The notes under the pieces were generated by a model. That model had not been told where the DNA came from, made no database searches, and saw only the letters and a program-made list of their open reading frames with translations. A stretch of DNA of 64,000 nt from Longimicrobiales bacterium (GTDB lineage: Bacteria; Gemmatimonadota; Gemmatimonadetes; Longimicrobiales; Gaopeijiaceae), in the NCBI GenBank assembly GCA_951828585.1, contig OX639991.1:3702001-3766000 (forward strand), in the 5' to 3' direction. Made by a program: the position numbers and the translations under genes. The stretch's first letter is position 1. Each line of letters starts with the position of its first letter. This document shows positions 38,685-64,000 of the stretch, in pieces.

Positions 38685-38751
38685 CTAGTGTTGTGTCCCA
38701 GAAGTTCGTGAGCTACCGAATAGCCAAGAGATCTCCGGGGCACGACACTAG
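38685..38751. mobile_element. 67-bp MITE-like element with CTAG ends
   Basis: Inverted termini CTAGTGTTGTGTCCC (38685-38699) and its near complement (38737-38751, 13 of 15 matching), each with CTAG at the edge. No coding capacity. It abuts the left end of the next repeat copy, sharing one CTAG. The structure suggests a miniature inverted-repeat element, or the two ends of an insertion sequence with the middle deleted. The family was not identified. Confidence 0.6.
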
Positions 38752-39000
38752 CAGTCCGTGGATAGAGCCGCACGAGCACCGAGAGCGGCGAGGCGCCGGG
38801 CTGGCAAGGCGCGATGAAGGGGGAATAGCAGCGCTATTCGCCCGAGGAGCAACGCAGAGCGAAGCCTTGAGGTGGCACAATGTATACTACACATGACATA
38901 ATGTAATGTTTGCTTTACAGGATGAACAGCCGAAGCGAAGCGGCCAGCGCGGATGCATCGCCGCTCGAATGCCGGGGGGATCTTGTCCACGGGCTGCTAG
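38748..39000. repeat. Full-length dispersed repeat copy interrupted by an AT-rich insertion
   Basis: Bounded by CTAG on both sides: left terminus GCAGTCCGTGGAT, right terminus TCCACGGGCTGCTAG. The interior follows the 171-bp unit (hairpin GAATAGC/GCTATTC present) but is split after position 38865 by a foreign AT-rich segment. The right end provides the TAG stop of the CBS-domain gene. The 38628-38996 gap holds only this copy and the MITE-like element. Confidence 0.9.
38866..38941. mobile_element. AT-rich insertion with 7-bp target duplication inside a repeat copy
   Basis: Compared with the five array units, this copy has 76 extra bases. They are flanked by the direct repeat GCGAAGC (38859-38865 and 38935-38941), as expected of target duplication. 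The inserted core contains GTATAC, TGTAATGTTTG and GCTTTACA and resembles the islands at 28844-28865 and 58524-58540. No terminal inverted repeats are visible. Confidence 0.65.
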
Positions 39001-61202: not shown

Positions 61203-61399
61203 GGGTTTGGCTCCCGGAATATAGCGGAAGACTTCCTGCCGCAGGTAGTGTGGTGCCAGGCGGCAAGGCCTCGGACGGGATTCGTCTCGAATGCCAGTGG
61301 GATCCCGTCCCCACAATGCCGACGAGGGCTCTTTGCGCTGGCGCGGGACCCCGGGCTTGCTTACGCTTTTTCTCCACCGCCAAAGAAGAGGGGGGATGC

Positions 61400-62482
61400 A
61401 TGGACTTCACATTCGTCGGTTCACCGAACAGCGAGACCTTCCGCTGGTTCGCCGATGGGTTGCGGGAAGTGATGGAATCGGAGGGCCATCGGTTTACCGA
61501 CGAATCCGGGGACGCCAAGCTCGTCTTCAACTTCTTTCCCAGGGGCCGGCCGCGTCCGTTCAGGCGCCGCGCGCAAGCCGTCTTCGTGTGCGCGGTCACC
61601 GAGTTCCCGCATCCTTTCACCGATCACATCGCGCAGGGATACCCCACGCTTCCGCGGGCGCTCGCCAATCTGGCCGTGGGGCTGGTGCCCGAGGGCAACG
61701 GCGACCCCGACGCCCACTTCATCACGATGGAGCAGGGACACTACGTCGTCGCCAACCACGCCGGCCGAGACAGCTACTTCCGACAGGTCTACGCCCGCAT
61801 CCATCCCATGGCGTCGTCAACGCTGGTGATCAACAATTTCTTCCAGGACGACCTTCCCGAGGACCTCTGGAACGGGGACGAGATCACCGCTTCCATCTGT
61901 CGCGCGGGCCGCCAACTCGATGAGCTGGATCTTCTGCCCGCGCCCTTCCCGATGGACGAGCTTCTGTCCCCGAGGGATTTCCGGCACATCAAACGCCTCT
62001 TCGGCATCGGGGGACTCTCGTACGGCAACATCTCGGCGCGCTACGACGCCGACTGGTTTTGGATGAGCGCCAGCGGGGTCGACAAATCCAGACTGAGCAG
62101 AATCGGGCAGGACATCCTGATGGTGAAGGACTACGACACCGCGCGGAACGGGATGATCGTGAGCCATCCGCCAGGGGTGGAGCCGCGCCGCGTTTCGGTT
62201 GACGCGATCGAACACTGGATGATCTACCAGGAGCACCCGGAGGTGGGCGCCATCCTGCACGTGCACGGCTGGATGGACGGCATTCGCTCCACCGAGTTCA
62301 ACTACCCCTGCGGTACCTACGAACTGGGTCAGGCGGTGGCCGACATTGTGCGCGAGGACGAGGATCCGGGGCATTGTGTGGTCGGGCTCAAGAATCACGG
62401 CCTGACGATCATCGGCACGGACCTGGACGAGATCTTCGAGCGGGTGGAGGGGAAGATCCTGCGCACGGTGCCGATGGACTGA
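61400..62482 (+). CDS. Class II aldolase/adducin-family protein
   Basis: 360 residues from the ATG at 61400, with a strong GAGGGGGG ribosome site just upstream. The N-terminal ~170 residues are not recognised. The C-terminal part is a class II aldolase/adducin fold: [54 protein letters not shown] (the His pair of the metal site), and [29 protein letters not shown] with the third His. Members act on sugar phosphates (fuculose, ribulose, methylthioribulose), but the N-terminal extension is unusual for those. It stands alone; the 256-base upstream gap holds the divergent S6-S18 leader. Confidence 0.75.
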
Positions 62483-62673: not shown

Positions 62674-64000
62674 TTGCGCATGACCGGCACCGCCCTTCTG
62701 ATCGTCGCCATGCAGCAGGCCACTCTGTCGGGCGTGGTCCGCGACAGCGTGGACCTGGAGCCGATCGCCTATGCCCAGGTGACAGTCACGGCCACGGCCG
62801 GCGAGGCGGCGGCCGCGGCGGGGGTGTCGGATCGGTACGGGGCGTTCGTGGTGCCAGGGGCGCCGGGGGGCGGGGCGGTTCGCGTCGAGGTGGCTGCGTT
62901 CGGATACGCGCTGTGGACACGGACCTACGAGACTCCGCCCTCGGAGCCGATACGGGTGTTGCTCAGTCCCGCTCCGATCGGCCTGGAGGGTCTCGAGGTA
63001 AGCGTCGCCGGCCGGGCCGGAGATCCGATTTCACTGTCCCGGGACGCCTTCATCATCGATTCCGTGCTGCTCAGGACCCTGCCCACGATCCTGGAGACGG
63101 ACGTGCTGCGGGCGACCGCGGTCTCCCCCTCCGCCTCCGCACCTTCCGACTAAACCTCGGTGCCCTTCATCCGGGGCGGCACCAGCGAAGGTACGCCGGT
63201 GCTGCTCGACGGCGTCCGGCTCTTCAACGCCTTCCACCTGGGGGGCTTCCTCTCCGCGATCAATGCCGAGGTGGTTGAGCGCGCGACGATCCTCGCGGGC
63301 TCGGGCGGCGACGGAATGGCCATAGGGTCGCTCTCGGGCGCGATCGACATCGCCACCCGTGACGGCGCGCGCGACGAGATGCGGATGGCCGGCTCGCTGG
63401 GCCTCGCCTCGTCCCGTCTGTCCGTGGAGGGACCGATCGGGAGCAGCGTGTCCTATCTCTTTGACGGCAGGCGCACCTAAATCGACGGCTTCACGCTGGC
63501 GCTCAAGAAGATGGGGGCCATCCCAGATCACCTGCCCTATTTTTTTCAGGACCTGCACACCAAGGTTACGGCCGATCTGGGCGGCGTCCGCCGCCTCTCG
63601 GTCAGCGGCTACCACAATACCGAGTCCCTGCAGGTGTACGACCGCGAGGAGACCAACACGCTGGGGCTGTCGTGGGGGAACTCCGCGTTGTCGGTTCACT
63701 ACCGTGACAGGCTCGGGGACAATGGGATCGTCGACGCGAACCTGGGGCACAGCCGCTTCACGAGCGACCTGTTTGCGTTGGGGGGCGGGTCCGCCCTCTA
63801 TGTAGACGACCAGCGCGTGGAGTACACACCGCCCACGGACACGCTGCTGTTCGGCGAGGGCATCATGAGCGAATTCCGCGCCGACCTGCGGGTCACCTGG
63901 CGCACGGGACGGGCCACGATCACGACCGCTGCACAGGCGACCCGGTTCCTCGGCGATCACGACTACGACCACACCGACGAGTTCGACTCGGACGAGGGGT
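62674..64000 (+). pseudogene. TonB-dependent receptor with two in-frame TAA codons, 3' end beyond window
   Basis: ATG at 62674 with AGGAG upstream. It opens with a short hydrophobic leader, then a carboxypeptidase-regulatory-like (CNA-B type) domain (LSGVVRDSVDLEPIAYAQVTVTATAGE, YGAFVVPGAPGGG). The plug domain follows (VPFIRGGTSEGTPVLLDGVRLFNAFHLGGFLSAINAEVVERATILAGSGGDGM), then barrel strands (RRLSVSGYHNTESLQVYD, LSWGNSALSVHYRD). The frame is broken by TAA at 63151-63153 and 63478-63480, then stays open to the window edge. There is no frameshift. Each TAA stands where the family has Tyr (D-Y-TSVPFIRGG and GRRT-Y-IDGF). It is probably an outer-membrane transporter gene in decay; recoding or base errors are alternatives. 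Confidence 0.75.

Follow-up and report, generated by a model that had tools for sequence, protein, structure and literature searches.

Introduction

Bacterial pseudogenes can arise by nonsense substitution, as in the arginine decarboxylase of Chlamydia trachomatis (PMC2720952). The locus described here, a TonB-dependent receptor gene (receptor 1) with its tandem paralogue, resembles such nonsense-formed pseudogenes in its apparent inactivation by in-frame point mutation and in the intact homologues of close relatives; it differs in that receptor 1 has several stops, the tandem paralogue is also struck, and neither gene is frameshifted. Intact TonB-dependent receptors combining PF13620, PF07715 and PF00593 offer a second comparison. 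Receptor 1 has the domain order of the intact L003, L004 and G003 copies; however, with its three stops it cannot be made whole. A third comparison is the reassignment or natural suppression of TAG and TAA, with which the locus shares in-frame stops at conserved sense positions and a frame that is otherwise open, whereas the stops seen here are neither genome-wide nor confined to one residue and the release factors and tRNAs of the genome are ordinary.

The window, a stretch of 64,000 nucleotides (G000:C1:3702001-3766000), comes from a 4.47-Mb single-contig genome (G000) that is 99.5% complete. The relatives of G000 are Gemmatimonadota MAGs, and some such lineages have been reported as sponge-associated (Palauibacterales, PMC10469786); the genome is that of a sponge-type Gemmatimonadota with close relatives from marine sponges. 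A preliminary description of the window had drawn attention to two TAA codons at expected tyrosines of a receptor frame and had offered pseudogenisation, artefact and readthrough as explanations. Here, by following the gene past the window edge and comparing it with related genomes, we find that receptor 1 and its tandem paralogue have very probably undergone recent, local and lineage-specific pseudogenisation.

A receptor gene with three in-frame stops

Receptor 1 extends beyond the window edge to about position 64998 plus a stop codon, ending at window-equivalent position 65001 (G000:3764680-3766998; Table 1). The alignment with the intact receptor of a related genome, G007, covers positions 1-772 and is interrupted by one interior TAG and two TAA codons, with no frameshift across the 772 codons of receptor 1. 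The preliminary description had reported two TAA codons in a frame otherwise intact and free of indels. Both codons are present (63153 and 63480 are their last bases), and within the window the rest of the frame is open; the full gene, however, contains a third stop, a Trp-to-TAG change, past the window end. That each TAA is a single change from TAC is borne out by the nearest relatives, which carry TAC at both sites.

Table 1. Features of the receptor locus, in window coordinates.
Feature	Position	Strand	Basis or remark
Class II aldolase/adducin-domain protein, intact upstream neighbour	61250..62482	+	PF00596; synteny kept in L003, L004, G001
Receptor 1, very probable TonB-dependent receptor pseudogene, 5' part from ATG	62680..64000	+	89% identity to intact G007 receptor; Pfam
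Premature stop 1, TAA, codon 158	63151..63153	+	Tyr replaced, immediately before conserved plug motif TSVPFIRGG
Premature stop 2, TAA, codon 267	63478..63480	+	Tyr replaced within GRRTYIDG
Premature stop 3, TAG	64174-64176 (window-equivalent, past window end)	+	SYAGS*WDAR; TGG (Trp) -> TAG

When the separate pieces of receptor 1 were searched against Pfam, piece 1 matched CarboxypepD_reg and piece 2 matched Plug; the two barrel pieces gave no Pfam match when searched alone, and PF00593 is matched by the tandem copy's relative in G007. Judged from the Plug match together with the alignment to the intact G007 receptor, the ancestral frame contains both a plug and a beta-barrel. We regard receptor 1, with considerable confidence, as a recently inactivated gene whose product was an outer-membrane receptor of the TonB-dependent type, bearing a carboxypeptidase-regulatory-like domain at its N-terminus. 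Translation would be expected to halt at codon 158, ahead of most of the plug and the entire barrel, so that no receptor would be produced.

About 0.9 kb past the end of receptor 1 lies another receptor of this family, with 59% identity to the G007 receptor 1. It too is without a frameshift and carries a single in-frame stop, a CAG-to-TAG change (G000:3768546) at a site that is Gln in each of the four homologues closest to it. Each receptor is followed by a lipoprotein-like frame that is still open, which fits a recent inactivation.

Elsewhere in the window, positions 38748-38997 (G000:3740748-3740997) are occupied by a dispersed repeat some 250 bases long, which shows 83-87% identity to two sites on G007 contig C132. 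Further copies in G000 include three placed head-to-tail at 207141-207897 and others at 305731, 3507811 and 3906775; within the window, no Rfam family scored above its threshold.

Homologues retain sense codons at the stop sites

When the intact G007 receptor was used as query against 15 whole genomes, 25 subfamily members were recovered. Interior stops occur in both members in G000 and in none of the 23 members in five other genomes, so that the three disabling stops of receptor 1 stand against 23 homologues free of them. Copy number among congeneric genomes ranges from 0 (e.g. G001, G004) to 15 (G003), indicating that gain and loss of this subfamily are frequent and normal.

Among 28 aligned homologues, the column of stop 1 holds Tyr in 22 and Phe in 6, that of stop 2 Tyr in 21, Trp in 4 and His in 3, and that of stop 3 Trp in all 28. 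Likewise, across 25 related loci the first site is Tyr (22) or Phe (3) and the second Tyr, Trp or His, with every locus intact there. The expectation that both stops of the window replace tyrosine thus agrees with most homologues, and the related loci show no stop at either site; what did not survive is the pattern itself, since the full gene adds a Trp-to-TAG change and its neighbour a Gln-to-TAG change.

Tyr is the commonest one-step source of stops in receptor 1, its codons providing 36% of the single-base routes to a stop under the substitution spectrum of four-fold sites and 27% under a uniform spectrum. Two or more of three stops would accordingly fall at Tyr with a probability of 0.29 or 0.18, respectively. 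Tyr specificity is ruled out by this calculation together with the third and fourth stops; once the Trp and Gln stops are counted, no residue specificity is left. That every stop appeared to lie at Tyr was an accident of the window ending mid-gene.

Selection and timing

Changes on the branches leading to receptor 1 and its intact relatives were polarised with L005 and L006. Counts of synonymous, missense and nonsense changes are 49/35/3 on the G000 branch, 70/24/0 on the L003 branch and 43/23/0 on the L004 branch. The ratio of nonsynonymous to synonymous changes, 38:49 on the G000 branch, is raised relative to the 47:113 of L003 and L004 together (Fisher P = 0.026), though not relative to L004 alone (P = 0.32). 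The excess is mild and may favour recent pseudogenisation, which the stop at an invariant Trp, the fourth stop in the paralogue and the stop-free homologues in related genomes support. Branch counts for the aldolase and the lipoprotein were left out: those for the lipoprotein were small and uneven, and the alignment of the aldolase took in N-terminal sequence that is non-coding.

Pairwise dN/dS of receptor 1 to L003 and L004 is 0.16-0.19 and resembles that between intact relatives. The other homologues share 163 invariant columns, and at these receptor 1 departs in the Trp stop alone, with missense at none of them. We interpret these two observations as indicating that receptor 1 has spent most of its history under purifying selection and that its inactivation is recent.

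One oddity is left, the ratio of stops to missense changes. Neutral decay of receptor 1 is expected to yield roughly 26-37 missense changes per nonsense change, and under such decay three stops would accompany an absence of missense at invariant columns with a probability of about 0.0015-0.0035, or 0.013-0.023 given one stop, values that are post hoc and concern a feature chosen for its oddness. Plain neutral drift explains three stops poorly; the tension is real but post hoc. TonB receptors are commonly used by phage and bacteriocins. Pressure from either could have favoured null receptor alleles, leaving nonsense with little missense decay, and the high stop-to-missense ratio and the striking of both tandem copies are what such selected loss would give. 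Yet one stop per gene suffices for a null allele, and three on one haplotype are left unexplained; we consider selection of this kind a rather unlikely cause. It is in any case compatible with pseudogenisation, as the gene would be dead either way.

Translation machinery and stop codons across the genome

The frameshift-free 772 codons and the absence of missense at 163 invariant columns could also mean that the protein is still made and selected, the stops being tolerated or read through by programme, for example as Tyr, in a functional receptor. Several observations speak against this. RF1 (prfA) and RF2 (prfB) are present above curated cut-offs and contain no stops. The 45 tRNA matches in G000, whose anticodons were read with ARAGORN, have ordinary anticodons; there is one tRNA-Tyr (GTA) and, among these matches, no TTA, CTA or TCA suppressor anticodon. 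TAG and TAA serve as ordinary terminators at gene junctions, conserved genes are not generally interrupted by stops, and, with Tyr, Tyr, Trp and Gln replaced by both TAA and TAG, a single suppressor cannot restore all four codons. As far as release factors, tRNAs, stop usage and the immediate codon context show, readthrough that keeps the receptor functional is very improbable, and the insertion of Tyr in particular, which the preliminary description had entertained, is disfavoured by the intact release factors, the normal tRNA-Tyr, the lack of a suppressor anticodon among the tRNA matches and the generally uninterrupted conserved genes. Also very improbable is a reading in which TAA and TAG are read through in this receptor family according to their context, the stops serving to control dose or phase and not being lesions. 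Among the tRNA genes, 17 are clustered in 2.1 kb at G000:C1:841489-843555 (L122), all with ordinary anticodons; tRNA-His was not found among the 45 matches despite the closed circle and was perhaps missed by the search.

Surveys of coding sequence point the same way. A codon-potential survey of 864 kb at a loose threshold gave 73 candidates (37 TGA, 30 TAG and 6 TAA), mostly apparent operon junctions. Synteny with G007 covers 109 aligned coding frames over about 130 kb, and the interior stops seen there in long, truly coding genes are those of the two receptors and of one DUF4953 (met-zincin) metalloprotease on the minus strand (G000:C1:311744-314398), where an in-frame GAG-to-TAG change at 313397 replaces the Glu of the G007 homologue; synteny with G001 (174 aligned frames, 155 of them at at least 60% identity) yielded no convincing interior stop. 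The other listed stops fall in upstream extensions or in antisense, overlapping or non-coding frames, as judged by eye. Stop reassignment is ruled out by these surveys together with the release factors and tRNAs.

Frameshifts do occur in G000. In another TonB receptor, on the minus strand (L052), a frameshift splits the Plug (G000:C1:3573612-3573968) from the barrel, in a locus that takes in about 1 kb downstream; the two pieces of this split receptor, near G000:3573600, match Pfam with E = 4.9e-20 and 1.7e-20. A genome-wide habit of nonsense without frameshift is thereby ruled out. The split receptor adjoins a transposase-like gene. Broken genes other than the receptor pair therefore exist in G000, one by frameshift and, in the metalloprotease, one by nonsense, in keeping with pseudogenisation of the pair.

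Base-call or consensus errors would leave the real gene intact. In assemblies, interior stops are known to betray such errors (Cooley & Wright 2024, PMC11017572), and receptor 1 lacks decay at invariant columns, as an intact gene would. Nevertheless, the gene pair makes up 1,536 codons, or about 1.4%, of some 109,000 aligned codons surveyed and holds four stops, alongside one other convincing case elsewhere, a clustering not expected of random base error; random errors should moreover have left missense at invariant columns, where none is seen. The substitutions are also mixed (C>A, C>A, G>A, C>T), so that a C-to-A artefact, as proposed at the outset from the two TAA codons, cannot account for the G-to-A and C-to-T stops of the same gene pair. 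The contig ends C1:1-10982 and 4461334-4472315 are identical over 10,982 bases, which we read as the two ends of a circular chromosome, about 4,461,333 bases (about 4.461 Mb) in length, whose overlap was left untrimmed, so that the genes there are double-counted; a closed contig whose ends overlap without mismatch also speaks against error, but is not an independent test of accuracy. Altogether we judge it distinctly unlikely that the stops are errors.

Discussion

Recent pseudogenisation, among the options first offered for this locus, is the best supported, given the extra stops beyond the window, the intact homologues and the lack of general recoding. We envision that the substitutions would be ordinary point mutations, accumulated after the receptor subfamily was no longer needed or came to be selected against. 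Readthrough would be notable if it were true, and the evidence assembled here points against it.

The main value of the analysis lies in a correction, in that the apparent Tyr-to-TAA recoding came from the position at which the window ends. Beyond this, the locus records a receptor subfamily very probably lost from a single lineage of sponge-type Gemmatimonadota, whose congeners carry from 0 to 15 intact copies.
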